DNA of 35,810 bases from a virus. Both the position numbers and the translations under genes were made by a program. The stretch spans positions 1 through 35,810 of the IMG/VR virus record IMGVR_UViG_3300023242_000019. The stretch is one strand, 5' to 3'. Every line of letters starts with the position of its first letter. The stretch's first letter is position 1. The notes below the pieces were generated by a model. That model made no database searches, had not been told where the DNA came from, and saw nothing but the letters and a program-made list of their open reading frames with translations. Shown here in pieces: positions 3,401 through 34,189 of the stretch.

Positions 3401-4217
3401 CGCCCACTTGACCAACACCCGAAATGGCTTCTGCGGCAAGAAAAGGAGCAGGTGCTGCGCGGGCCGCGGACCCTGTTCGAGCCAGCATGTTTTGAGCGCC
3501 TTGAAGCAAACGAGTGGACCGAGACGGCGTTACGCCGTTTTCGGCTAAGTTCTTTACAAACTCGGCCGTTCCAACCCCAACGTTTTTACTAATCATGAAG
3601 GGAAAGGGCAGCCAGCCTAAAACGCCTGCGGCGGTTTTCCCGGATTCATAGGCGGCTGTTTGTCCCGGAAGCATCGGACTTTCTGGTCCCATTAACTGGT
3701 CGGTAAGTAATTCGCCGCCTTTATAGGCGGCCAAAGACCCCGCTATACCCCCCACTAAAGCAGCGGCCCCTTTTGCTACAGGGTGCGCAACGGGCACTTT
3801 TGCGCCAACTTTTGCGCCCGCCATAAAACCGCCCAGAGACGTTGTTGCGGGACCGACTTCACGTTTAAAACCGTCTAGGAACGTACCGGCTTCAATGGGG
3901 TTACCTTCGGTATCTTGCGCCAGTAAGTTTATTATTTGGTCGTTTGTAAGGCCTCTTTCTGAGGGCGGCTTGTCTTTTAAAGGTCCAAAAGTATCAAACA
4001 ACGTGGAGTTACCGCTTAACAAACCTTGATAAGCGCCACTTCCTAAAACTTCTTCCGCCAGCATTTCTGCCATAATTTGAGACGGGTTTTGACCTTCCGA
4101 GGAGAAGTTTTGCACATAGGCATCAAACTGAGGCTTGTCAAAAACCACCGGGCTATAATTAGGTCCTACGGAATCCGCTGTTACGACTTCCGGCGCGACT
4201 ACATCATCTGGTCCCAT
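489..4217 (-). CDS. Giant virion protein, putative internal/ejection protein (1242 aa)
   Basis: No enzymatic motif is visible. Residues about 122-170 form a Gly/Ala-rich hydrophobic stretch (MAGAKVGAKVPVAHPVAKG, AALVGGIAGSLAAYKGG) that could insert in or cross a membrane. The rest is long, charged and mostly helical, and the C-terminal ~100 residues are Pro/Gln-rich before a conserved-looking end (RYAAMFPNDSTTQLM). The ATG overlaps the preceding stop by one base (TAATG), so translation is probably coupled. Large helical proteins downstream of the tail hub in short-tailed phages are typically packaged internal proteins ejected with the DNA, and that is the role I infer. A tail appendage or a packaged enzyme of unrecognised fold are alternatives. 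Confidence 0.7.
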   Translation of the reverse strand: MGPDDVVAPEVVTADSVGPNYSPVVFDKPQFDAYVQNFSSEGQNPSQIMAEMLAEEVLGSGAYQGLLSGNSTLFDTFGPLKDKPPSERGLTNDQIINLLAQDTEGNPIEAGTFLDGFKREVGPATTSLGGFMAGAKVGAKVPVAHPVAKGAAALVGGIAGSLAAYKGGELLTDQLMGPESPMLPGQTAAYESGKTAAGVLGWLPFPFMISKNVGVGTAEFVKNLAENGVTPSRSTRLLQGAQNMLARTGSAARAAPAPFLAAEAISGVGQVGGASVAETYFQGDPLARIFFETVGGVGTTVASSPLAPVLNNYDQILPALRRVKQTYEQGGASAVLSPLKSARQRKAVERIVDILEAEGEDVEAVIQRLAGDDLGELLVGEDGKPIMLTAGAKGGSPALLAIEASLEQLGSGLSAERTAGSKASIKALRNVILAMSQTGDQDALQTAADLAEGVFSAQLNERMAFATDNVLKAFETVSRDGTSNIQLSERLFDVITNQLGQARSKEKILWGSVPEIDITSFSNAAGEATNTPSFITKWNSVRGVSPELQGKLADDMPLLQQFVDRKTNELGLGAPAPASGELVTAQRRATDAVTKLAGTSYENRVSSIVDAMTNEGATQQDILTRLRQEASSSRGRMSTPRTRQLADALDKTADLMVMQGNQPAADGTGVITDPLTTKELTELRGIALNYSRRFSSGENPDYNSARIANEMASAMLDDLGGASLGPEANDYRFSYDMARSYSRSLNDTFTRAFAGEATKTKGSGAASMGPELLARRILQGGNDPTYLRLEQINEIGMFAVEEGLADAETTIGTLRGVTEQILRNARSEAFDPNTGEVNPDALAKWVAKNKDVLDQFPGLQFDLQNAESANVLLRESSEINRKNQAEELAQLSFYDLMNPVMSDTGRRVYGTESPTTAIARAINTRAPIQGLDRLLSVVTNAPEDAREQAMTGLKSSILEWAATKAGGSHSGTFSPSTLYDDMFRPIKGSRGRVSLVDWMKENKVMNEAELSNLKTYLSEMVRFEASEKAGDIGELVDRAGPLFDFYLGITGSAIGTRAQRMFTGGQSGPGALIAAGQGAETMRRIFNDIPAALQTDVMSELMANPTLLAAMMRKPRNDKERVRLAERVGNMLKDLGFSPIRRSPPSIIRETDEETEKFTVPSEPQRPLPPSDQEGSLNTAPEGPPALPGAVTQPSPVQQAAAPPQVAPVQSSGPVDRTRYAAMFPNDSTTQLMKSGIGSLGG

Positions 4218-7153
4218 CAGGGTTTTCCGTTCTGTTGGTTCATAATGTGCTGCCTAAATCCGGCGGCCGTATCGTTATCAACTTTTCCCGTAACGCTGCT
4301 TGGAACAGTGGCCAACATTCCTAACAATCTATCAATCTCAAAGTTGTTAGAAAGAACCGCTTGGCGGGTCTTGTCGTCTTGAATGCCGTCGTTAAGAGCC
4401 GTTAAATTTGCGCGTCTTTGTTGTTGTGCTAACGCCTTCATTTCTACCAGCTTACCTGCTTCAGACTCCGGGTTGGTAAAAAACTTGTCTGGATCAGGAA
4501 ATAAAGCCCCGACCTTTTCCATTTCAGCAACAGGAAACCGTGGGTTAACTACCAAGGCTGATCGCCCTAGAATGGTAAGGCCCCGCAAGAATTGACGGTT
4601 TGCTTGGGTTCCCGAAAAAGCTTGACGAGCTTGTGGGATAAAGCCCCCAAACACGTTATCGGCAAACACTGCAAACCCTGCGTAGGGGCCCGTACCGTTA
4701 CGAGCCGCAGACATTGCATCACGCATCAGGGCCGCATCTTTGCCGGATAAATTCTGCGGGTTTTCGCGGGTTCCGCCGCGGGAGACAATTCCTAGTTGTT
4801 CGTCCATAGCCTCTAAATCGGAGCCGGCCCTTAAAGCAACTCTTTGTTTTGCCGCAATATCGTAAGCAATTGTATCGCTTAGTGGATTCACGCCGGTAGT
4901 AGGCATACTTTGCGCTGTACCGTCCGAGGCTACATAGGTTCTTCCGCCGTCATAGCTTAGAACGTTGCCCAATCCTTGAATAGCGAAGGCTTTGGCCGTC
5001 GGAGCGGTGTCAGAACTCATGTTAGAAACATTGAATTTCTGCGTACCGCCGGAGTTGGCTTCGTTGGCTTTTGCAATAGCGGCCGCTCCACCCACGGTGG
5101 TTGCGTCAACCACCTGAGTAGTTTGGTTGCCCATATTGCGAATAACTTTGAAGTCGGGTTTGGTAGGTCCGCCTTCCGCTTGAAAGACGGACGTTGCCGT
5201 ATTGTCCGCAGGATTAAATAGGACCAGATCGTTGTCCACAACCTTGAGGCTTGGTGCCAGACGATCCGCTGCCGCTTCCGCCTCGGTAAACGCCTGCTTA
5301 CGAAGAGCCAAGCTTTCGTTTGCAAGCTGAGTAATCGTGCCCAAATCCAGATTACCTTGAGAGATGTCCAGACCACGCTCTTTAAGACCGTTTGCAACGT
5401 CATTTTGAAGCTGTGTAAGCAACCGATCCTTCTCAGACTCGCTACCAGTAAAGTCCTGCATGTCGTTTTGCAGCAAACTTTTAAAGTCTTGAGCATTGAT
5501 CTGCAAGCCTTCACGAGCCGCACGATCCAACGCATTTTCCGTAGCCGTTGCCAACTGTTGATTTTGCGCCGCCGCCGAAGCAATGGTGCCCTTGTGGGCT
5601 GCCAACGCAAGGTTAAAGTCGTGCCCTTTGTCCATCTGAGCCAATTCGTAACCGTTTTTAACACCGGCCACTTGTAGGGTATTGTCCAGATCAACTGCTT
5701 TTTCGGTTACGCGCAAGCTACTATTTAACTCTGCCAACTGTCGACCCAGTTCTGCACGTTGAGCAATAGTTTTCTCATCATTTGCAAACCCGAGGGCCTG
5801 ACGTGATGCACTAGCCGCGTCAATTGCCTCCTGCAACTCACCTTTAAATTCTTGTGAAGACAAGCGTTCGGAAGTTGTAAAGTCAAACTTTGCGCCTTGA
5901 AGAACTAAATCGTGAGCTTCCGACAAACGCGCTTCTTTTACGGTTAATTCATCCCGAAGTCTAATTTGGTCCTCGGTCAGCGTACCCTTTAGGTTTTCCA
6001 ATGTCCGCCGACTTTCCGACAAATCCCTTGCCAAACGTAGAGCATACCCTTGCTCTGTTTCGCCCGTTTCGCGCTGGAAGGAAAACTTATTGCCCTGCAA
6101 CAGTAGCTCTTGAGCGCGTTCCGCCGCTTTTTCTACTGATTTACTTTCCGCTAAAGCGGCCGCCGCGGAGGCATCTATCTTAGCTTGATTTTCTACTCCC
6201 AGTTTAGTCTGAGAGGACTGCAACGCTGCCATGTCTAACTGGCGTTTTTCCGCAGCTTGGCCTTGCTTAAACTTTAATAGTTCACCCGAACGGGCTCCGA
6301 TATTACCTAATACGGGTTGCGCCACTTGTGCCAAACGCTCCGCAGGGCTCATCTGACGATCCCCGGGGGTGGCAAAGGCCAATGCACCCTGCGCAATGTC
6401 AAACAACATCTGCGATTGGGTCATTTTCTTTTGTTCGTCGTAAGCCGCTTGTTGCTCGTTTCCGCCAATAAGCTGGCCATAAAGAGCCCGGTCTTGGTTA
6501 AAAAGCTCCAAGGCCCGTGGGTCAGGGGCACCGGCGACACGATTAGTGTTCTCTGGTGCAAAATACTGAACCGCGCCGCCTTGTCTAAAATTTACAGGTA
6601 CAGGAGCCTCCTCGGCACCCATATTAACCGTGGACATAATACCACCGGCCATGTCCCCCTCTATAGGGGTATTCATTGCGTCGGGAGCTAACCCGCCGAT
6701 TCCTTGATCTACCGCCGCCATTTGCATGACAGGTTGGATCAGCGTTAAAACCGAGTCTGGCGTTTGTTGGGCATCTTCTTCGCCAACCATTTCGGCCAGT
6801 TCCATACGACGGTCTTGTAGGGGAGCTTGATCCCCTCGAATGGCGTTAATCACACCTTCGTAATCTTCGTTTTCCGCCGCGGCGTCGATGCCTTCAAACT
6901 GTCCCGCAGCTTGCCCTAGCATTTGTTCCAAAACCGCTGGATCGATGCCCGCTTGAGCGCCCATTCCTTCGGCTTCGCCCATGCTGCCTGCTTCAGGCTG
7001 GGGCATTCCGGCCATTGCCATTTGTGGAATTGCAGCGGGGTCTACCGCTTGCTGTGGTGCTGGGGGCATCATTGGAGAACCGCCCGCCTGCATATACCGA
7101 ACCTGTCCGCCGTTTGCAAACATTTGTCGGCCCATTACACCTCTATCCATCAT
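4217..7153 (-). CDS. Large coiled-coil virion protein with N-terminal Gly-Gly motifs (978 aa)
   Basis: The N-terminus is Met/Gly/Pro-rich and carries FANGGQV (12-18), YMQAGGSPM (20-28) and FRQGGAVQYF (189-198), copies of a motif shared with other proteins here. Residues about 200-620 are Ala/Gln/Glu/Lys-rich and look like long coiled coil. The remainder is globular and polar, ending near DRLLGMLATVPSSVTGKVD. No catalytic signature is seen. ATG and the upstream stop share one base (TAATG), and the gene overlaps the 1242-aa gene the same way. The context suggests an internal or ejected virion protein of a short-tailed phage. Proteins with this Met-rich, GG-containing start are familiar from marine phage metagenomes, but I know of no demonstrated function. 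Confidence 0.7.
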   Translation of the reverse strand: MMDRGVMGRQMFANGGQVRYMQAGGSPMMPPAPQQAVDPAAIPQMAMAGMPQPEAGSMGEAEGMGAQAGIDPAVLEQMLGQAAGQFEGIDAAAENEDYEGVINAIRGDQAPLQDRRMELAEMVGEEDAQQTPDSVLTLIQPVMQMAAVDQGIGGLAPDAMNTPIEGDMAGGIMSTVNMGAEEAPVPVNFRQGGAVQYFAPENTNRVAGAPDPRALELFNQDRALYGQLIGGNEQQAAYDEQKKMTQSQMLFDIAQGALAFATPGDRQMSPAERLAQVAQPVLGNIGARSGELLKFKQGQAAEKRQLDMAALQSSQTKLGVENQAKIDASAAAALAESKSVEKAAERAQELLLQGNKFSFQRETGETEQGYALRLARDLSESRRTLENLKGTLTEDQIRLRDELTVKEARLSEAHDLVLQGAKFDFTTSERLSSQEFKGELQEAIDAASASRQALGFANDEKTIAQRAELGRQLAELNSSLRVTEKAVDLDNTLQVAGVKNGYELAQMDKGHDFNLALAAHKGTIASAAAQNQQLATATENALDRAAREGLQINAQDFKSLLQNDMQDFTGSESEKDRLLTQLQNDVANGLKERGLDISQGNLDLGTITQLANESLALRKQAFTEAEAAADRLAPSLKVVDNDLVLFNPADNTATSVFQAEGGPTKPDFKVIRNMGNQTTQVVDATTVGGAAAIAKANEANSGGTQKFNVSNMSSDTAPTAKAFAIQGLGNVLSYDGGRTYVASDGTAQSMPTTGVNPLSDTIAYDIAAKQRVALRAGSDLEAMDEQLGIVSRGGTRENPQNLSGKDAALMRDAMSAARNGTGPYAGFAVFADNVFGGFIPQARQAFSGTQANRQFLRGLTILGRSALVVNPRFPVAEMEKVGALFPDPDKFFTNPESEAGKLVEMKALAQQQRRANLTALNDGIQDDKTRQAVLSNNFEIDRLLGMLATVPSSVTGKVDNDTAAGFRQHIMNQQNGKP

Positions 7154-20229: not shown

Positions 20230-21399
20230 CTATGCTGCTATGTCATCCCAGCTTGGGTTTTGAGACGGTGTTTCGTCATTCCAAGCAGGGGTGGAAGATG
20301 GTGTTATGGGAGTATAGCCCGGATTTTGATCTGGATCAACTTTGTTCCAGACAGGGCTTTGAGAAGGCGTTAACGGAGAGTATCCGGGGTCTTGATCGGG
20401 GATTATTCCGCCCCAAACAAGAACAGGGCCAACTTGGCCCGTAGCAGTGACGCCTGTTACAAGAACGTCCGCATTTGCGTTGGCATCGACTTGGCCGACT
20501 TGGCCTGTGCCTTCAACGCCTGTTACAAGAACGTCAACGGTGACAAAAATGCCGACTTCTACTTCACCGACAGAGCCGGCGGCTTCTAGTCCAGTAGGAT
20601 TAACATCGGCATTAGCGGTAACGGCAACAGAGCCAACTGATCCGGCGGCTTCAAGGCCCGTAACAGGCGCTAGGGCATCAGCTTCAACAACTACTGTGCC
20701 AACCTGACCCGTACCGGCAATTCCAGAGGCGGGAACAACTGCGGTGCCCGTTACGGTTACAGTGCCAAGACCACCCGTACCAGAAACACCTGTGACCGTA
20801 ACATCCGCGTTGGCCTGCACAACCACGCTACCTACTGCGGATGAACCGGACAATCCCGTTACAGAAACATTAGCGTCTGCAACAATTACAACAGAGCCAA
20901 CTTCCCCATTAGCTGCAACGCCATCAGGTAAGACATTGGCACCCGCAATCACTGCGACAGAACCTACTGCGCCAAGGGCCTCAACCCCGGTGGGGTTAAC
21001 ATTAGCGTCTGCGACAACAGTTACGCCACCAACAGAGCCTGTGGCCGCAAGGCCAGTAACTGATGTATTTGAGTCCGCCGTAACGACTACAGAGCCTACA
21101 TTGCCAGTGCCAGCCACCCCAGTAGGGGTAACAACAGCCTCCGCGGTGATTGTGACCGAACCCGGAGAGCCTACAGCCTCCGATCCTGTAACATTCACGT
21201 TTGCCTCTGCGACAACAGTTACGCCACCAACAGAGCCTGTGGCTTGCAGCCCAGTCACAGGAACATTGGCCTCTGCAACGATTGTTACAGGGCCAATCTG
21301 TCCGGCTGCACCCGCGTTCGTAATAGAGTCTTCGCCAAAGGCGAGTTGACCCCACGTCCCCCGGCCCCAGCCGGAAAAGGGGACGATAACGTCAGTCAT
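20230..21399 (-). CDS. Fibre-like protein of about fourteen 22-residue beta repeats (389 aa)
   Basis: The N-terminus MTDVIVPFSGWGRGTWGQLA carries a WG motif also seen in the tail hub protein. Residues ~27-331 are tandem units of consensus (V/L)xATGSVGxVTVxAxANVxVTG, 22 residues each (one of 24). The regular apolar alternation predicts two short strands per unit, as in beta-solenoid or filamentous fibre shafts. Residues 332-389 are a second, Pro/Trp repeat (DPDQNPGYTPITPSSTPAWN and relatives). No chaperone or enzyme domain is seen. It sits between the 144-aa structural gene and the S74 fibre, so a fibre or head-tail decoration is likely. Two small proteins elsewhere end in a single copy of the unit. 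Confidence 0.75.
   Translation of the reverse strand: MTDVIVPFSGWGRGTWGQLAFGEDSITNAGAAGQIGPVTIVAEANVPVTGLQATGSVGGVTVVAEANVNVTGSEAVGSPGSVTITAEAVVTPTGVAGTGNVGSVVVTADSNTSVTGLAATGSVGGVTVVADANVNPTGVEALGAVGSVAVIAGANVLPDGVAANGEVGSVVIVADANVSVTGLSGSSAVGSVVVQANADVTVTGVSGTGGLGTVTVTGTAVVPASGIAGTGQVGTVVVEADALAPVTGLEAAGSVGSVAVTANADVNPTGLEAAGSVGEVEVGIFVTVDVLVTGVEGTGQVGQVDANANADVLVTGVTATGQVGPVLVWGGIIPDQDPGYSPLTPSQSPVWNKVDPDQNPGYTPITPSSTPAWNDETPSQNPSWDDIAA
20407..21321. repeat. Tandem 66-base coding repeats, about 14 units
   Basis: DNA counterpart of the 22-residue units in the 389-aa protein. Copies are diverged at third positions but keep the GCxGGxACxGGxxxxGTxGG-like core. The repeat also opens long antisense frames with no other support. 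Confidence 0.8.
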
Positions 21400-21833
21400 T
21401 AGGCTATTCGAAGGATCGCGTTAGAAGCATCCGCTGTTGGGAATACGACAGTAAAGTCACCACTCGTAGATGTCTTGTCTGAACCAAAGTCCAAAATAAC
21501 CACCGCTGGATCACCCGCCGCTGATTCATTGTAGATCAGCGCACCACGGGCCGTAATCGTTGAAGACGCCCATGTTGTGTCTGCAAAATCAGTGAAAGCC
21601 GTAGTTCCAGAGCTTGTTGGATCAATCCGCGTTAGCGTATTGCCGCCAGCTACATAACCTGTCCCTGTTATTTCGTTAGAGGTGGTATAGGCAGCAGTTG
21701 CCGCCGTAAAGGACGCGTTGTTGTCATACAAAGCAATCTTAAAGGTGTCTCCACCGCTTAATAGAAAGTTATGCACGGCCTCAAGAATCTCTTTCTTAAA
21801 GCTCGTACACATGAAGTTACCTGTAAAGGCCAT
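21399..21833 (-). CDS. Conserved virion structural protein (144 aa)
   Basis: MAFTGNFMCTSFKKEILEAV begins a helix; then FKIALYDNNASFTAATAAYT, the beta region TARGALIYNESAAGDPAVVI, and a DFTVVFPTADASNAILRIA end. This type is very common in phage structural clusters, usually near connector and fibre genes, and is often detected in virions, but no precise role is established to my knowledge. Its first 143 coding bases are nearly identical to the start of the preceding 120-aa gene. The start has AAGGAG with normal spacing. Confidence 0.8.
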   Translation of the reverse strand: MAFTGNFMCTSFKKEILEAVHNFLLSGGDTFKIALYDNNASFTAATAAYTTSNEITGTGYVAGGNTLTRIDPTSSGTTAFTDFADTTWASSTITARGALIYNESAAGDPAVVILDFGSDKTSTSGDFTVVFPTADASNAILRIA

Positions 21834-21881: not shown

Positions 21882-22244
21882 TCATGTCTTTTCTCGCAGA
21901 ATAAGACCTGTTCGATAAGCGTCAGTGACCTCTTGTGATTCACCGAAGTTTTTGACGCGAGAAAGCGCCTCAGTGAACCTCTGAGTGTAGTTTTGAACTA
22001 GATCGGCCTCACCCTTCATGAAGGTATAAGCCTCAATCAGAGAGCCGTACAGCATGGACACAGAAGCATTAGTGCTCAACCATGTGGTTCCGTCCTCAGC
22101 GCCAGCAGTTGCCGCCGTAAAGGACGCGTTGTTGTCATACAAAGCAATCTTAAAGGTGTCTCCACCGCTTAATAGAAAGTTATGCACGGCCTCAAGAAGC
22201 TCTTTCTTGAAGCTCGTACACATGAAATTTCCTGTAAAGGCCAT
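21882..22244 (-). CDS. Chimeric gene: start of 144-aa protein fused to C-terminus of connector-like protein (120 aa)
   Basis: Residues 1-47 (MAFTGNFMCTSFKKELLEAV ... SFTAATA) equal the N-terminus of the 144-aa protein. Residues 46-120 (TAGAEDGTTWLSTNASVSML ...) align end to end with residues 142-216 of the 216-aa connector-like protein next door, by my hand count 49 of 75 identical. The join is in frame at a shared Thr-Ala. The N-terminal part is nearly identical at DNA level, but the C-terminal part is clearly diverged, so this is not a simple tandem copy. It looks like a crossover product between two related phage genomes. Whether the protein has a function is unknown; the frame is intact and has its own AAGGAG site. 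Confidence 0.85.
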   Translation of the reverse strand: MAFTGNFMCTSFKKELLEAVHNFLLSGGDTFKIALYDNNASFTAATAGAEDGTTWLSTNASVSMLYGSLIEAYTFMKGEADLVQNYTQRFTEALSRVKNFGESQEVTDAYRTGLILREKT

Positions 22245-22278: not shown

Positions 22279-22929
22279 TCATTGTTTCGGCCTAATTAAC
22301 ATACCAGTCCGATATTCATCTGTTACTTCTTTACTTTCGCCAAGCATTTTCATGCCAGATACGGCTTCGGCAAATCTTTTTTCGTACATAGCCATCATAT
22401 CAGCCTCACCCTTCATAAAGATGTAAGCTTCCATCAAGCTGCCGTACAACAAAGCTATTTCCGCGTTTTCACTAAGCCACGTGGTCCCATCTTCCGCGCC
22501 AGCCGTCAAACTAGCAGGCCGGTAAAAGTAATGTAGTTCTACGGCCGAAGAAGCGTCTGGGGTAGGGCCCAAAACAAAGTTATCTACGTCAAAAACAGCA
22601 TAATAACGAGGGCTGCCCGTCGTCGTCGCGTCCGGATTAAAAGATTGGACAAAATCCACGTCTTTAAAGTCCAAAAACACATGGTCTCCGCTCGCATCTA
22701 TAAAAGAAAGCGAAAAAGAAGCCAAATAATCACTAGGACAAGCCAAATATTTGTTAGAAGCGGACATTGATCCGCTCACATTCTTTTTAAACAGGCTTAA
22801 TTGAACGTTTTTAAGAATCCGTTCTTCCGCCTGCGTGATAAAAAGAGGCAAATTGTTGACGAAAGTGGTTTCTTCGTTCTCAGTATAGTCCTGAATAGCC
22901 TGTTTTAATTGTGCATATGTAAAGCTCAT
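22279..22929 (-). CDS. Head-tail connector/tail tubular A-like protein (216 aa)
   Basis: MSFTYAQLKQAIQDYTENEE ... FVNNLPLFITQAEERILKNV is the helical start typical of the T7 gp11/stopper-like adaptors of podoviruses. LACPSDYLASFSLSFI and GSPRYYAVFDVDNFVLGPTP form the beta core. The C-terminal helices (LYGSLMEAYIFMKGEADMMA, then YRTGMLIRPK) close the fold. Such proteins form the dodecameric ring between portal and nozzle. ATG overlaps the previous stop by four bases (ATGA). The C-terminal third recurs, diverged, in the chimeric gene downstream. Confidence 0.75.
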   Translation of the reverse strand: MSFTYAQLKQAIQDYTENEETTFVNNLPLFITQAEERILKNVQLSLFKKNVSGSMSASNKYLACPSDYLASFSLSFIDASGDHVFLDFKDVDFVQSFNPDATTTGSPRYYAVFDVDNFVLGPTPDASSAVELHYFYRPASLTAGAEDGTTWLSENAEIALLYGSLMEAYIFMKGEADMMAMYEKRFAEAVSGMKMLGESKEVTDEYRTGMLIRPKQ

Positions 22930-23228
22930 GTCACCACCGTCACTGATCCAACCTGTCCAAAGCCCGTTGCGGGCCGGAGGGCGGGGTTTTCTACCAAAGG
23001 CACACCAACATAAACGTCCATGGGCTCTACCCGGTCAGGGCGAGCGTTCTGTAACGCTTCGGGGTCTGAAACTTTACGAAAAGGCCCTAATTGGGGCTGT
23101 TTAGGCTCAAATTCGTCCGGGCCAACTAGCAACCCGTTCCATTCTTTGCGCATAAGTCGATACCGATACCGTTGCCCGGATCGGTCCGATATAGCCCATG
23201 AATTTTTACCGGATGCAAACTTAGACAT
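22926..23228 (-). CDS. Small structural protein with C-terminal ATG-x-GQVGSVTV tag (100 aa)
   Basis: MSKFASGKNSWAISDRSGQR starts a basic domain (YRYRLMRKEWNGLLVGPDEF) of a type common between connector genes of marine phages, often with a Pro-rich middle. The last 15 residues, PATGFGQVGSVTVVT, match the repeat unit of the 389-aa protein and the tail of the 98-aa protein. The start is in a TAATG overlap with the gp4-like gene and the stop in an ATGA overlap with the next, so it sits between the two connector genes. A minor head-tail junction protein is a reasonable inference. Confidence 0.75.
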   Translation of the reverse strand: MSKFASGKNSWAISDRSGQRYRYRLMRKEWNGLLVGPDEFEPKQPQLGPFRKVSDPEALQNARPDRVEPMDVYVGVPLVENPALRPATGFGQVGSVTVVT

Positions 23229-23896
23229 TAGCCCACCCTGTAATATTGATAATTAGGAACGACGTTAAACGACGAACGATCCCGATCTTCTGTGGCTGCG
23301 CGGTCAAACTCTTCTTCATATACTGCTTTCAGCATTTGAACACGGTTAGGAGCCCGCTTTAAAGCGATATAATAAGCCAATCCCGCCGCCAAACACGGAT
23401 AAAACCTAAACGGAAGGTCCATGGTGTTGGTGTATATGTCCGCATCATCCATACGGGTCAAAGCGTCATAATACACAACATCCGTGGCATTGTCCGGAAC
23501 AGGCCACAAGTTTAAAACCGGCGTAACTTGCCGGTCTAAGAAAAACTGATTTACGCGGCCTTGAGTAGCTTTGTTTGGGATTGTAAGAAACCCATCACGG
23601 CTTAGACGGTCCAAAGAATAATCTGTCCCGTCGCGTTGAACAATGACAGACAATACGTCAATAACGTCATTGCCTAGTTCATAAGAACCATCACCAACAA
23701 CCATTGCTACGGTCCGCTGCTTAATGGTCCATTGGTTCAAACCACGGTTAGCCCAATCCGCAAGCATAAGATTTAACGACCTTTTGGCCGTCTTTAGGTC
23801 ATAACCGGTTCGTACCTCTAAGCCGCAACGCTCAAAAGCTTCTTCAACGTACTCAGCTACGTCTAAATCAAAATCTTTGCTATTAGAGGTAGTCAT
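23228..23896 (-). CDS. P22 gp4-like head-tail adaptor (222 aa)
   Basis: The chain opens with a helix (DLDVAEYVEEAFERCGLEVR), then LKTAKRSLNLMLADWANRGL and LNQWTIKQRTVAMVVGDGSY, a pattern shared with P22 tail accessory factor gp4-type adaptors that bind the bottom of the portal. The second half has a beta section (TPVLNLWPVPDNATDVVYYD) and a last helix (PCLAAGLAYYIALKRAPNRV). The length is in the family range. The connector assignment fits the neighbouring stopper-like gene. It begins in a TAATG overlap with the 53-aa gene. Confidence 0.7.
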   Translation of the reverse strand: MTTSNSKDFDLDVAEYVEEAFERCGLEVRTGYDLKTAKRSLNLMLADWANRGLNQWTIKQRTVAMVVGDGSYELGNDVIDVLSVIVQRDGTDYSLDRLSRDGFLTIPNKATQGRVNQFFLDRQVTPVLNLWPVPDNATDVVYYDALTRMDDADIYTNTMDLPFRFYPCLAAGLAYYIALKRAPNRVQMLKAVYEEEFDRAATEDRDRSSFNVVPNYQYYRVG

Positions 23897-24057
23897 TACC
23901 GTTTCCTATTCGTCTTTGCGGTTTTAGCCGACAGCTTGAACGCTTTTGCCGTTGGAGCGCCCTTTGCGCCGGGTTTTCGCATCTTCTCGCCCGAACCCGC
24001 AGCAATGCGGGTTCGTTTAGCTTGAATGTTCGAGTATAAACCGGGCTTCTTTCCCAT
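23896..24057 (-). CDS. Small basic protein (53 aa)
   Basis: Encodes MGKKPGLYSNIQAKRTRIAA followed by GSGEKMRKPGAKGAPTAKAF and a Lys-rich end (TAKTNRKR). It starts in a TGATG overlap with the upstream mini-gene and stops in a TAATG overlap with the adaptor gene, so it fits the gene string exactly despite its size. The GSGEKMRKPGxKGAPTAxAF phrase is one I recognise as recurrent in marine phage genomes. It is highly basic and probably binds nucleic acid or acidic head proteins. Function is unknown. Confidence 0.8.
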   Translation of the reverse strand: MGKKPGLYSNIQAKRTRIAAGSGEKMRKPGAKGAPTAKAFKLSAKTAKTNRKR

Positions 24058-24212
24058 CAGGCATTCCTTACTACACAGCTTTTGTTGCCGACTTTACCGC
24101 CGCTGCCAAATTTCTTGACCATACCGCCGCCACGCATTTTCTTAACCATGCCGCCACCGCGCATCTTTTTAACCATGCCGCCGCCACGCATTTTCTTAGG
24201 TTTCATCGCCAT
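24057..24212 (-). CDS. Lys/Gly repeat mini-protein, MVKKMRGGG repeats (51 aa)
   Basis: From ATG at 24,212 (a second ATG two codons on is possible) the protein is MAMKPKK followed by MRGGG, two full MVKKMRGGG units and a degenerate MVKKFGSGG, then KVGNKSCVVRNA. GGGGG eight bases upstream serves as ribosome site. The gene overlaps the end of the 194-aa gene by 17 bases and the next start by one. The unit's M/F-x-x-G-G-x-V core is the motif found at the ends of several large virion proteins here, so this protein resembles a free-standing array of it. Strongly basic; function unknown. Confidence 0.75.
   Translation of the reverse strand: MAMKPKKMRGGGMVKKMRGGGMVKKMRGGGMVKKFGSGGKVGNKSCVVRNA
24096..24200. 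repeat. 27-bp tandem repeats in the mini-gene
   Basis: Two complete 27-base units (24,123-24,149 and 24,150-24,176) with partial copies on each side. Unit borders coincide with codons, giving nine residues each. Confidence 0.9.
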
Positions 24213-24780
24213 TTTTTAGCCCCCTATAAAGGTTTTCCCGCTTTGCATAGATTTCGCGAGCATTATATTCTGCGTCATAAGTATCATAGTAGCCCTTTTT
24301 TGACAACTTGTCTGCCGCTTCTTGCAGTTTTGACAACCGTTGCACAAAAATCAAGGAATAAGCTTCTTCCACGGTAGCGTCGAACTCAATGTCCGCTACA
24401 AAGTCGCTCGCGTCGTCTTCTGGGTGAAAACCCATAACCCAGATGTCTTTATCAATAAACATCCCCTCAGAAATCACTGTGTTCAAATCGTCCAAATATT
24501 CATGGAAAGCTTCCGGGGCCGTTTCAACCGTTAAGTCTACAATGATGGCTAATTCAAAATTGTCATCAAAGCTAGAAACAGTGCGGTACAAAACTTGGTT
24601 ACTACTTTCGTATTTAAAAAGTACAGCAACTTTTTCGTCCAGCCACGCTTGTTTTGCATAAGGACACGGCGGAAGGTCGTTAAAATACGGGTTGCTTTTT
24701 TCTAAAACTTCTTCGGACCACTGCATTAACTCGGATACAATGCTTGCCTCTTTAGGGTTGCCGAAAAAGGAAAGGTTCAT
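24196..24780 (-). CDS. Soluble non-structural-looking protein with NPxFxxLPPCPYA motif (194 aa)
   Basis: The start MNLSFFGNPKEASIVSELMQ at 24,780 has GGTGA ahead and avoids the long overlap that an upstream in-frame Met would need. The motif SNPYFNDLPPCPYAKQAW (29-46) is strongly conserved-looking and holds a single Cys in a Pro cage. Then an alternating strand/helix core (FELAIIVDLTVETAPEAFHE, IWVMGFHPEDDASDF) and a last helical part (LSKLQEAADKLSKKGYYDTY). The composition is that of a cytosolic enzyme or regulator, unlike its structural neighbours. I recall similar PPCPFA proteins in marine phages and bacteria, without a proven function. Confidence 0.65.
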   Translation of the reverse strand: MNLSFFGNPKEASIVSELMQWSEEVLEKSNPYFNDLPPCPYAKQAWLDEKVAVLFKYESSNQVLYRTVSSFDDNFELAIIVDLTVETAPEAFHEYLDDLNTVISEGMFIDKDIWVMGFHPEDDASDFVADIEFDATVEEAYSLIFVQRLSKLQEAADKLSKKGYYDTYDAEYNAREIYAKRENLYRGLKNGDET

Positions 24781-24787
24781 TTCTACT

Positions 24788-25072
24788 TCACCACGCTTTG
24801 CAGGACCAGTATCGGGCGCTGAACTTGTCTTTTGCCGTATCACACGAATGACGGGCTCGAAAGTTTTTACGACGGCCGGGTTGGTCTTTTTTAATGGACA
24901 TCTTAGGGTCCCCGAACCGGACCAGTTTGATCTCAGAGCCTTTTTTAGCTAGGACGGCGCTCTTTTTTGATTTGCCGGGAGTTCTTTTTGGCTTATTGAA
25001 GCCCGAAAAGCTCTCCCCACGGTAAGTTATTCTTCCGGAAGGCGTTCTAGTTATGTCTTTCGTAGTAGCCAT
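24788..25072 (-). CDS. Small basic conserved phage protein with Cys/aromatic C-terminus (94 aa)
   Basis: MATTKDITRTPSGRITYRGE, then a Lys-rich middle (KPKRTPGKSKKSAVLAKKGS), a short beta region (IKLVRFGDPKMSIKKDQPGR) and the hallmark end FRARHSCDTAKDKFSARYWS-CKAW. The two Cys and the RARH...ARYWSC layout recur in many marine phage proteins and may bind a metal with His. Function unknown. The gene lies in a run of small basic genes between capsid and connectors, so a head-associated or DNA-binding protein is likely. Confidence 0.7.
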   Translation of the reverse strand: MATTKDITRTPSGRITYRGESFSGFNKPKRTPGKSKKSAVLAKKGSEIKLVRFGDPKMSIKKDQPGRRKNFRARHSCDTAKDKFSARYWSCKAW

Positions 25073-30205: not shown

Positions 30206-30781
30206 TTAACTCCTTTGGAAGACGCTTGTACGGGGACCCGAATTATTTAACAAATAATCGGTGTCTGTAATTAGGGATTGAAGGTCCGGGCCCTGCGCTT
30301 GTTGCGGGGGCATGTACGGGGTGAAGGGCTGAATAGAATTAGTAGGACCCATTGGGGTGCCGCTATACGCGCCGTATGTCCGACCTTCTACTGGAGGAGG
30401 CGGCGGAGGCGTAAATGCGGTGTTATCCGGGGAGGGTGTAAACACGGGGTTAACCACCGGTGGAGGTGTAACAGGGGCAGGGAGCATAGGGTCCACACCG
30501 GGAGGAAGGGAAAAAACGGGCGTATCAGGGGCAGGCGCTTGTTCTAAAAAAGATACATTGTATTTTTCATTGGTGCCCGGCCCAAAAAGACCGGACTCAA
30601 CATTCTTGCGTTGAGTTACCCCAGATTGCGCTTCCCGACCTTTATCGTCGTAAAGAACGTATCTAACCATGCCGCCACTGGCGCTAGGGGTAAACTCCAG
30701 TCGTTGACGCGTATCCGGAGCCACATCGCCACCTTCCGCAAACTTCTGCGGATAGGCGTAATTTAAACTCTTGCTCATCAT
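30206..30781 (-). CDS. Proline-rich protein with N-terminal FAEGGDV motif (191 aa)
   Basis: The start MMSKSLNYAYPQKFAEGGDV carries the Gly-Gly motif shared with the giant proteins. A short beta region follows (MVRYVLYDDKGREAQSGVTQ). Residues ~85-150 are a Pro/Val/Thr linker (LPAPVTPPPVVNPVFTPSPD; FTPPPPPPVEGRTYG), and the end is helical (LQSLITDTDYLLNN). ATG overlaps the portal stop by four bases (ATGA). The architecture is that of a tether or spacer, and it may link packaged proteins to the portal. Function is unproven. Confidence 0.75.
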   Translation of the reverse strand: MMSKSLNYAYPQKFAEGGDVAPDTRQRLEFTPSASGGMVRYVLYDDKGREAQSGVTQRKNVESGLFGPGTNEKYNVSFLEQAPAPDTPVFSLPPGVDPMLPAPVTPPPVVNPVFTPSPDNTAFTPPPPPPVEGRTYGAYSGTPMGPTNSIQPFTPYMPPQQAQGPDLQSLITDTDYLLNNSGPRTSVFQRS

Positions 30782-33234
30782 TGCGTTTGCCCTCGCTGTT
30801 TAAGTATCTCACGGTCCATGGCCGATTGAATACGAGCCGCCGTCTGCTCTTCCTGAGACTGCAACCGCTGCTGGAACTGCTGTCCGCGCATCTTCTGGTT
30901 CTGCGCATCCAACTCCAGCTTGGCCTGATCGATCTGAGTGTCCGCCTGATCTGCCGTCGCCTTCTGCTGCAACTCCTGCTCTTTAAGCTGAACAAGTGGA
31001 TCAGGAGCGCCAGCACCCGAAAGCTCACCAGACAATTCTTTAAGCTGCTGCAAGCCTTCCGCAATTAACTGAGCCGTCATCTGCTCGACCTGAAGCATCT
31101 GCTCCTCGTCCGCAGGTTGACCACCCTGCTGCTGAACTTGCTGCAAATACTGAACCGCCGCTTGCTCGCGGGACGCAATCTGCACATGCTCCATAACGTG
31201 CTTCTGAACAGCAACCGCGACAGGAGGCATACCGCCCACAATCGGAGAAGTGCCAAACAACAAGTGAGCCGTAATGTGCGCCTGATGGTTCTGACCCTCA
31301 AACGCCTTCAACGGCAACATGTCTAAAGCATTAATGTTTTCTTGCGCCGGATCAACAGGCTCATCCGTATCCGCCGGTATAGACTTCAACAAACGATCCG
31401 TGTCCGTAACACCCAAAGCGTCGTACATGTCCCTAAAGACTTCGTGCATGTTGTGTATCTCAGGAGCCTGAGACGCCAACTGCAACTTAGTCTGAGCCAA
31501 CATAATACGCTGCGATTGACTAAACACATTCGGATTGCTGACCGGTATAACATCTACCCGACCATCAAAATCCTCGCGCATAATCGTCTCATCACCGCCC
31601 GGAACCGAATACGGATACTCCTGCGGCAAACTCTCCGACATAACACGGGCCAAAATCCGAAACTCTTGGCGCATCGCATAGTGCAACCGCTTGTGAACAG
31701 CACTCATAACACGAGAGCCCTGCTCCATCATAGCCATCGTTGTGCCGACAGCCGCGTTCTCGTTGCCGTCTCCAACCTTCAAGTCTGTAATCGTCGCAAA
31801 CCGCTGACCAGCCTGAACAACAAAACCCAACAACTGGAACAACGTCTGATCCGGACCCTTAAAGGGCAACGGCATAAGACTATCGCGGATAGCCCCACCC
31901 GGAGCATCCACATCGCGGAACTCACCGGGCTGCAACGGTTCATCATCGTCTCTGATCCGTAGTCCACGGGCCTTGAAACCCGCAGGGAGGTTGGACAACG
32001 TACCCGCGTCAATCAACTGTCGCAGTGCCGAAGTGGCGGTCCGTGACAGACCCCCAATCGTGTGTATCAAGCCAAGGCCGTAAAAACCAAACCCCGGCAA
32101 AAACTTAAAATGCGTGAAAAATTGTATCTTCTTTTTCCGCTCATCTTCCTCGGTCCAATTCCGACGAACAGACAAAACCTGCCCGTTGTCCATGGAAAGC
32201 GTAACAATATAAGGGACCCGGATGCCCGTAGGCTCGCCGTCCTCGTCAAGCTCCTCATAACCCTCAAGGTCCAAATCAACGTGACACTCAAGTATCGTGC
32301 AGTCGTAATCAATCGTACCCGGCTGTAGGCCGTCAATTCGATCTATCGTGCCGTCAAGCCCCGTAACCTCACGCTGCGCAGGAATAACGTCAACATCATC
32401 CAAATAAATCCCAGCAATCTGACGCTTGCGCAAATCATTCAAAGACATCCGAACAACCTGAGTAATATTAGGACACGTCTCAAGATCAGAAGTTTCATAC
32501 GGAACAACTAAATTCTCCGCAGGAACAAACTTACTGACCGCACGGCCCATAGCCTCGTCGTAATACGTCTTCTTAAACGTCGAACCAGCAAGCGGTAAAT
32601 AAAACAACATCTGATCCATGTCAGGAGTGTAATCCTCCATGACATTCGTAATGTAATAATTCATAAATTGACGAACACGCTGCGATTGAGCAGCCTTGGC
32701 CCGCGTCTCTTGGCCCATAACAACAGTACGAACAGGACCGCTAGACGGCAAAAGCTCATTAAAAGCCTGCGCCTGAAACTGTGTGGCAGCCTCCGCAAGC
32801 AACGGATGCGTAACACCCGAGGCCCCACGAAACGGCTGCGTCCGCTCCTCGTAGTTAAAGCCCAAAAGCTCCAAACCACTCGAATACGCATCCTCCCAGT
32901 CCTGACGACTGGCCTTGTTCGCGTCATACTCGCTCAATAAATCACCCGCAATGCGCTGCAATTCACGATCCGGCATCTCTTCAGCCAAGTTGGCATAAAA
33001 ATCCATGTCCTCGCCGCGCTGGTCTTGGGGATCGAAATCAACCTCAACACCGCCGTCGTCAGTCTCACTGATTTCTATCTCGCCAACGTCCTCGGCACTA
33101 ATCATAGCCATAACGTCGTTCTGTGAATCAGGAAGCTCAATCTCCATCTCAGCCTTTAGGTCATCCTCGTCAAGCTGCGCAGGAACATTGTTGTCCATTA
33201 AACTACCCGAGTAACCATTTATTTCTTCAGCCAT
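30778..33234 (-). CDS. Portal protein (818 aa)
   Basis: The large P22-type portal layout is visible: an acidic N-terminal extension (~1-80), TQPFRGASGVTHPLLAEAAT and QFQAQAFNELLPSSGPVRTV (~132-171), a long mixed core containing GNENAAVGTTMAMMEQGS and HKRLHYAMRQEFRILARVMS (the helical stem/crown region), and a Gln/Ala/Glu-rich coiled-coil C-terminus (LKEQELQQKATADQADTQID) like a portal barrel. 818 residues fits short-tailed phage portals of this class. It forms the dodecameric DNA gate that docks the terminase and the connector proteins. It lies two genes after terL. Confidence 0.85.
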   Translation of the reverse strand: MAEEINGYSGSLMDNNVPAQLDEDDLKAEMEIELPDSQNDVMAMISAEDVGEIEISETDDGGVEVDFDPQDQRGEDMDFYANLAEEMPDRELQRIAGDLLSEYDANKASRQDWEDAYSSGLELLGFNYEERTQPFRGASGVTHPLLAEAATQFQAQAFNELLPSSGPVRTVVMGQETRAKAAQSQRVRQFMNYYITNVMEDYTPDMDQMLFYLPLAGSTFKKTYYDEAMGRAVSKFVPAENLVVPYETSDLETCPNITQVVRMSLNDLRKRQIAGIYLDDVDVIPAQREVTGLDGTIDRIDGLQPGTIDYDCTILECHVDLDLEGYEELDEDGEPTGIRVPYIVTLSMDNGQVLSVRRNWTEEDERKKKIQFFTHFKFLPGFGFYGLGLIHTIGGLSRTATSALRQLIDAGTLSNLPAGFKARGLRIRDDDEPLQPGEFRDVDAPGGAIRDSLMPLPFKGPDQTLFQLLGFVVQAGQRFATITDLKVGDGNENAAVGTTMAMMEQGSRVMSAVHKRLHYAMRQEFRILARVMSESLPQEYPYSVPGGDETIMREDFDGRVDVIPVSNPNVFSQSQRIMLAQTKLQLASQAPEIHNMHEVFRDMYDALGVTDTDRLLKSIPADTDEPVDPAQENINALDMLPLKAFEGQNHQAHITAHLLFGTSPIVGGMPPVAVAVQKHVMEHVQIASREQAAVQYLQQVQQQGGQPADEEQMLQVEQMTAQLIAEGLQQLKELSGELSGAGAPDPLVQLKEQELQQKATADQADTQIDQAKLELDAQNQKMRGQQFQQRLQSQEEQTAARIQSAMDREILKQRGQTQ

Positions 33235-33256: not shown

Positions 33257-34189
33257 CTAAACGCCGTAATTACGGTACTTACGAGGAGATATCCCCATAA
33301 CGCCTCTAGTCGTGTCAAAATAACCTTCCTCGTTGCGAGGGAAAAAAACATCCGGACCCTCAGACGGTGATTTAAAGTTCCGTGGGGCGCGAGGCTGATC
33401 CGCCGATGGCGTCATACGATCCTCCTCCGAACGTCCCATTATCTTATCTAACTGCTTAAATATCTCAGCGTCAACCTGCTGGGTTAACTCCTCAACAGTC
33501 GCGTCTATTCCAGCCTTCATAAATATCTGACGACCAATCGCGTTGTTGCGCTGGTCCATAGCAACGTCACGCTTGTTCTGACCACCACCCATAAGAATCG
33601 GCGCAAAACGATCCATAAACTCACTAAAGTTTCCAGCACTCTCCGCAGTATCAGGCCCATACTCCGACGCCATAACAGCCGAACCTAACAAATGACCCCG
33701 AGCATCCTCTAACTCAGGATACGTCGGCAAATCACCACGGTCCTCGGGCCGCGCATGACGGACTTCTTCAGAATAAAGGTCCAAATCGGTAGGTATTATC
33801 TTCTCGCCCGTCTCCTCGTCAAAGACACTCGGATAGCCGTACTCGTCAATTAATGTCTCCATAAACTCAGGGGAGGTGCCGCCAACACGGCCAGACTCAC
33901 GTAAATCTTCCGTGACGTTCTTTCCACGTATCCGGTCCATGATAAGGGACCCTAAACCTTTTTGGTCCTCAAACTCCGCAAGCTCTTCTTCAGACATAAC
34001 AGGCGCATCGTCGCCCACGGGGCCCCTGAGATCAGCAAACTCAGGCCTCGGGCTTTGTGACCCCGGTGCCGTGCCCGTCAACGTTTCTTCCAAGTACATA
34101 GGACTGCCGCCCCCCTCGAAATACATCACGTCGTCAAAGCCGCCAGCCCCAAGATTTACCGCAGTACCATACATCCAGACGCCCTTCAT
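33257..34189 (-). CDS. Unknown protein between terminase and portal, with YFEGGGSPM motif (310 aa)
   Basis: The ATG directly follows the terminase stop (TAG-ATG). Residues 13-31 read LGAGGFDDVMYFEGGGSPM, matching the GGSPM motif of the 978-aa protein. Residues ~165-235 hold ARGHLLGSAVMASEYG, ESAGNFSEFMDRFAPILM and MDQRNNAIGRQIFMKAG, a His/Glu/Asp-Asn spacing reminiscent of small helical domains of the DUF6973/toxin-like type. I offer this only as a possibility. The C-terminus is polar. Many marine podoviruses have an unassigned gene here. It may be a packaged protein or a packaging factor. Confidence 0.65.
   Translation of the reverse strand: MKGVWMYGTAVNLGAGGFDDVMYFEGGGSPMYLEETLTGTAPGSQSPRPEFADLRGPVGDDAPVMSEEELAEFEDQKGLGSLIMDRIRGKNVTEDLRESGRVGGTSPEFMETLIDEYGYPSVFDEETGEKIIPTDLDLYSEEVRHARPEDRGDLPTYPELEDARGHLLGSAVMASEYGPDTAESAGNFSEFMDRFAPILMGGGQNKRDVAMDQRNNAIGRQIFMKAGIDATVEELTQQVDAEIFKQLDKIMGRSEEDRMTPSADQPRAPRNFKSPSEGPDVFFPRNEEGYFDTTRGVMGISPRKYRNYGV

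Follow-up and report, generated by a model that had tools for sequence, protein, structure and literature searches.

RGG-box low-complexity domains are basic, presumed to be disordered, and built on an Arg-Gly-Gly core. The 51-residue mini-protein analyzed here resembles them in its R-G-G core and its basic character, but an RGG box is recognized by conserved, closely spaced Arg-Gly-Gly, whereas here the cores lie 9 residues apart and many family members have Lys, Ser or Ala in place of the Arg. The internal head proteins of phage T4 are larger and are not tandem repeats. The likeness that we propose between them and the mini-protein is the packing of a small protein with DNA: these internal (ejection) proteins are described as small proteins that are packed in the T4 head together with the DNA (PMC7697877). 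As for the SAP/HeH DNA-binding motif (Pfam PF02037 and PF12949), the first half of SAP is matched, below the cut-off, by a C-terminal extension carried by some relatives; the extension is absent from the mini-protein of the window.

The family phrog_16028, which has members in 74 phage records and is represented in the window by the 53-aa neighbor at 23896-24057, is likewise small, basic and part of the head module. Its gene lies just before that of the adaptor, which it directly precedes even in the T7-like cyanophage P-SCSP1u, but its sequence is unrelated to that of the mini-protein and is without the Gly-Gly repeat. Excerpts of the cryo-EM study of P-SCSP1u (PMC10575957) assign no virion density to a protein like the mini-protein, a comparison limited by the fact that this phage was seen to carry only the neighboring 53-aa family, and excerpts of PMC9860041 name no mini-protein of this type. 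In the open-licence literature of PubMed Central we found no paper on the mini-protein family and no mass-spectrometry or binding results for it; the string MRGGG led to unrelated papers among the matches listed.

Gene and repeat array in the head module

The window, by which we mean the whole stretch of DNA analyzed, is a tailed-phage contig (a virus record of 35,810 bases) whose minus strand codes for a terminase (Pfam Terminase_6C), a Cpn10 co-chaperonin, a gpT-like capsid protein, a second protein with the adaptor fold (2.7e-23) and an S74-domain tail protein. The mini-gene lies inside the head gene module, between the capsid and adaptor genes, in the order 215-aa gene, mini-gene, 53-aa gene, adaptor:

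23228 to 23896, minus strand: head-tail adaptor (Pfam SU10_adaptor, E 4.1e-14)
23896 to 24057, minus strand: downstream basic protein, 53 aa (phrog_16028, 6.9e-26), net charge +15
24057 to 24212, minus strand: mini-protein gene, 51 aa, MAMKPKK(MRGGGMVKK)3FGSGGKVGNKSCVVRNA
24060 to 24077, minus strand: C-terminal tag C-x-V-R-N-A, kept by some relatives with other codons
24065 to 24070, minus strand: TAAGGA within the mini-gene, from its sequence probably the Shine-Dalgarno site serving the 53-aa gene
24090 to 24116, minus strand: diverged unit 4, KKFGSGGKV (translation)
24111 to 24198, minus strand: 27-bp tandem array, 3.3 copies (Tandem Repeats Finder, period 27, score 134)
24117 to 24143, minus strand: unit 3, KKMRGGGMV (translation)
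24144 to 24170, minus strand: unit 2, KKMRGGGMV (translation)
24171 to 24197, minus strand: unit 1, KKMRGGGMV (translation)
24196 to 24843, minus strand: upstream partner, 215 aa (phrog_28122, 1.8e-23), weakly DUF1415-like
24220 to 24225, minus strand: AGGGGG within the upstream gene, a possible Shine-Dalgarno site of the mini-gene
30778 to 33234: 818-aa gene, called portal (51% identity to the annotated DSL-LC04 portal)

Translation of the minus-strand ORF (24212-24057) gives MAMKPKKMRGGGMVKKMRGGGMVKKMRGGGMVKKFGSGGKVGNKSCVVRNA. The preliminary description had placed a 51-aa gene here that overlaps both neighbors, and we find the ORF, its strand and its ends as it gave them, with an overlap of 17 bp with the upstream gene (24196-24212) and of 1 bp with the downstream gene (TGATG). 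Its statement that the gene consists almost wholly of a 27-bp repeat was right as to the period but slightly strong as to the extent: the array covers 88 of 156 bp, and the repeats account for 36 of the 51 residues if the diverged fourth unit is included. That unit has Phe in the Met position, like the large-protein motifs described below. The three exact units differ pairwise at 2-6 of their 27 bases, every change being synonymous. The protein is strongly basic, as had also been claimed, with a net charge of +15 over 51 residues and neither Asp nor Glu. Small basic proteins cluster around the mini-gene (net charges +19, +15 and +15), and similar clusters occur in other loci.

Searches with the mini-protein gave no match in Pfam (SAP included) or NCBIfam, none by sequence in the PDB, and a best E of 0.37, not significant, in PHROGs. 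AlphaFold produced no confident fold for the 51 residues (mean pLDDT 59.9, pTM 0.18) and, because this is a low-confidence model, gives weak evidence for disorder.

Elsewhere in the window, the gene at 21882-22244 looks chimeric: its N-terminal part falls in a 158-nt stretch that is 95% identical to the gene at 21399-21833, and toward the C-terminus it is similar to the adaptor-like gene at 22279-22929, the product either of recent recombination or of an assembly fault. A 389-aa protein (20230-21399) is built of GxVGxVTVxA repeats, and a neighboring 100-aa protein (22926-23228) ends in a short copy of the same repeat.

A widespread family under protein-level selection

Among the 599 pattern matches listed in viral contigs, 470 encode relatives of the mini-protein, and the best 80 of these 470 were kept as loci for study. 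An open family ORF is present in all 80 of these best loci, with the N-terminus MAM.P[KR] followed by repeated Gly-Gly units (read by eye), so that no frame disruption was seen in relatives. The mini-protein of the window carries the family traits: the N-terminus MAMKPK (family pattern MAM.P[KR]K), two or more Gly-Gly units spaced 9 residues apart, and a gene placed directly after a phrog_28122 homolog. The 86 distinct family proteins have a median length of 50 residues and a median net charge of 0.37 per residue; 63 of them contain no Asp or Glu, and their commonest Gly-Gly spacing is 9 residues (205 intervals).

To estimate selection we took 95 genes that have two or more canonical units and represent 74 distinct DNA sequences and 45 distinct proteins. 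From 169 pairs of distinct genes, matched in length, with 75% or more protein identity and three or more differences, a choice which favors conserved pairs, we obtained pN = 0.038 and pS = 0.341 (pN/pS = 0.113). The same nine residues are coded by 84 distinct DNA versions; the repeat is therefore held at the protein level and not as DNA. Distinct genes have 3 units (20 genes), 4 (50), 5 (2) or 8 (2), and the prediction that repeat number should vary between strains is borne out by two loci, L007 and L008: over 4,858 bases they share 97.2% identity, and one of them has exactly one in-frame 27-bp unit more than the other. We reject the idea that the C-terminal VRNA serves solely the ribosome site of the next gene: L037, L051 and L053 encode these residues by different codons. 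We conclude that the mini-protein is a member of a genuine, widespread, unnamed family under protein-level selection.

The position of the gene was examined in scans seeded on its neighbors. In the adaptor-seeded scan (68 of 80 loci, those with a full kilobase on the examined side), a small basic ORF containing two or more Gly-Gly pairs lies upstream of the adaptor on the coding strand in 59/68 loci, compared with 0/68 upstream antisense, 1/68 downstream sense and 0/68 downstream antisense; nine of the ten sequences in the seed alignment come from the window or from gene-carrying contigs, so these loci lean to this lineage. In the phrog_28122-seeded scan, whose seeds come mostly from carriers, the mini-gene directly follows the phrog_28122 gene in 75 of 79 loci (those of 80 with room downstream). 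Some adaptor loci have a wider Gly-Gly basic form (e.g. MAMKKKGYRNGGKVKKMSKGG...) before a different, 224-aa gene. Bacterial genomes yielded one relative among 47 pattern matches, on a Maricaulis MAG contig where the same adaptor gene stands behind it; this contig is therefore probably viral. Loci L174, L216 and L226 have several small, very basic genes clustered between capsid and adaptor, and for two of the gene types in these clusters the relatives in named phages match DUF6321, or DUF5872 below its cut-off.

At least ten relatives carry a C-terminal extension that in its first half looks like a SAP-type DNA-binding helix. Among 10 proteins, most of them chosen for the extension, 6 match Pfam SAP at 4.8e-4 to 0.077, every match falling below the Pfam cut-off, and a PDB search with a profile built from 14 extensions turned up no SAP structure. 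L010, L038, L213, L217, L226 and others carry the C-terminal segment TVAxLRxxAKxKGYKLVK, which is half a SAP-like motif; in L072 a DNKVTKKDVL insert stands in its place. As for the upstream partner, 2 of 7 phrog_28122 members match DUF1415 weakly (best 5.7e-4), and its model is a confident alpha/beta structure (pLDDT 82, pTM 0.78) for which a fold search gave nothing in the PDB at E ≤ 0.001 and otherwise brought up viral proteins that were uninformative.

A tblastn search of the mini-protein against 50,697 phage records gave no match, maybe owing to the low-complexity filter, since synteny did find relatives in cultured phages. In CRP-345, gp77 (L171 2626-2748) follows that phage's phrog_28122 homolog; an in-frame upstream start gives MAMKPRAMTKKK..., restoring MAMKPR, and on this reading of the sequence the annotated start probably lies seven codons downstream of the true one. 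In HMO-2011 a 50-aa Gly-Gly basic ORF (L397 45349) that is absent from the annotation lies just after gene 66, beside a DUF1415-like gene, and DSL-LC04 encodes a 75-aa relative (WJZ48052) directly before its adaptor. Like the protein of the window, all three are basic and rich in Met, Lys and Gly, with a repeated Gly-Gly core, and those of CRP-345 and HMO-2011 adjoin a DUF1415-like gene as in the window, whereas that of DSL-LC04 adjoins the adaptor. They differ from it in their looser repeats and, except in CRP-345, in lacking the MAMKPR N-terminus; they are annotated as hypothetical or left unannotated.

The Gly-Gly motif in large proteins

The core of the repeat unit can be written as [FYM]xxGGx[VPI], a pattern defined after the fact from the window. 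In the window minus the mini-protein, this post hoc pattern occurs 6 times versus 1.34 expected, a number reached in 2/1000 shuffles. With the pattern unchanged, DSL-LC04 has 7 motifs versus 2.48 (9/1000 shuffles), its second piece alone not being enriched (1 versus 1.68), and seven related contigs have 42 versus 12.7, the highest of 300 shuffles being 25. In nine related genomes we counted 54 forward motifs versus 15 reversed, with 12-27 for other orders and spacings around Gly-Gly and, for shuffles of 20-residue blocks, a mean of 18.3 and a highest value of 35 in 300; these counts are not independent because the genomes have homologous motif proteins in common. Proteins below 150 aa with a net charge above 0.12 per residue were left out of the motif tests, except that for the window and the first DSL-LC04 test only the mini-protein and its named relatives were left out. 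The earlier claim that large virion proteins contain the Gly-Gly core describes a real feature.

A few matches look like folded-domain matches (e.g. FYVYGGSV). Many of the motif carriers are large proteins whose size and position suggest a place in the tail, in ejection or on the portal side. Carriers in the window include:

4217 to 7153, minus strand: 978-aa protein with three motifs, FANGGQV, MQAGGSP and FRQGGAV
30206 to 30781, minus strand: 191-aa protein with FAEGGDV near the N-terminus
33257 to 34189, minus strand: 310-aa protein with FEGGGSP near the N-terminus

When HMO-2011 is searched in six frames with a family protein, the best match falls inside a 706-aa protein in the tail-side gene block (E 4.8e-4). 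Over 50 kb of each phage, the gene-carrying CRP-345 and HMO-2011 have 4 motifs each (versus 1.26 and 1.32), and HTVC027P, in whose 50 kb the mini-gene was not found, is enriched as well (6 versus 1.26). Three phages without the mini-gene are not enriched (HTVC023P, 1 versus 1.94; CRP-902, 2 versus 1.72; RW, 3 versus 1.36). Motif enrichment does not track the presence of the mini-gene.

Candidate roles of the mini-protein

What could such a peptide do in the head module? We tentatively favor the view that it is a late peptide of the head module, intrinsically disordered, able to bind DNA and probably packaged, because of its high charge, the scarcity of acidic residues, the lack of an AlphaFold fold and the SAP-like ends of relatives; its composition, as read from the sequence, favors nucleic-acid binding. 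The peptide would be a late product of the head module, translationally coupled to the DUF1415-like gene before it. It would form a disordered polycation, with Lys-Lys/Arg clusters spaced by flexible Gly runs, that binds DNA non-specifically, is probably packaged in the head, near the portal/adaptor vertex, and exits together with the DNA. Its MxxGGxV units may in addition occupy or bridge a site bound by large proteins, since several large virion-module proteins carry the same short motif singly. Against packaging stands the close association with the gene of an enzyme-like relative of DUF1415, which could point to a role outside the virion.

The motif in common suggests that the mini-protein may also gather virion-protein partners or compete for them, and it keeps open the linker and competitor ideas of the preliminary description. 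As a multivalent linker or hub, the mini-protein with its three or four motifs would gather partners during assembly, the large proteins carrying single motifs and one pocket of a virion protein (portal, adaptor or scaffold) binding [FYM]xxGGx[VPI]. The excess of forward over reversed and block-shuffled motifs in nine genomes fits this account, as do the conserved 9-residue phase of the Gly-Gly units and the F-type motif inside some mini-proteins (e.g. RRFNGGGSV), but HTVC027P is motif-rich with no mini-gene found, and the motif counts draw on homologous proteins; we regard it as rather unlikely, though worth keeping in view. The same enrichment (54 versus 15) and the small size are compatible with a competitor or timing factor that holds the motif-binding site until assembly and is then displaced, a role for which the extreme charge is unneeded and to which we give very little weight.

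Adjacency in 75/79 loci, seen also in CRP-345 and HMO-2011, raises the prospect that the mini-protein instead serves the DUF1415-like protein, as substrate, cofactor peptide or assembly tail, within a mobile two-gene cassette. The HMO-2011 coat gene is annotated as P22-type, versus the gpT-like capsid of the window, which would suit a mobile cassette, and the partner has a confident model; yet other phages place a Gly-Gly basic gene before the different 224-aa gene and the partner has no PDB fold at E ≤ 0.001, and we consider this improbable. A cationic peptide that binds RNA or is aimed at the host, as a regulator or a membrane-active agent, would match the composition, but the head-operon position and the replacement of the RGG-core Arg in many members speak against it, and we rate it only just above the competitor. 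An artefact of repeat or annotation, with no protein, might be suspected from the short ORF and from two antisense frames that are likewise open in the window; it is already contradicted by the pN/pS of 0.113 with variation at synonymous positions, by the open frames of the best 80 loci and by a C-terminal tag conserved with changed codons, and its probability is close to negligible.

Returning to the favored DNA-binding peptide, a broader and distinctly speculative proposal, unlikely on present evidence, would join it to the motif: in several capsid lineages of aquatic phages, [FYM]xxGGx[VPI] would serve as a common short linear motif that recruits virion proteins to a single receptor site, and a free-standing tandem motif array on a polycationic backbone would tie those proteins to the packaged DNA. 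The family itself is abundant in marine viral contigs and is nameless in Pfam, NCBIfam and PHROGs. If the motif is an assembly or cargo code, it could reveal virion proteins that are missed by sequence similarity, and its receptor could be found with one peptide pull-down.
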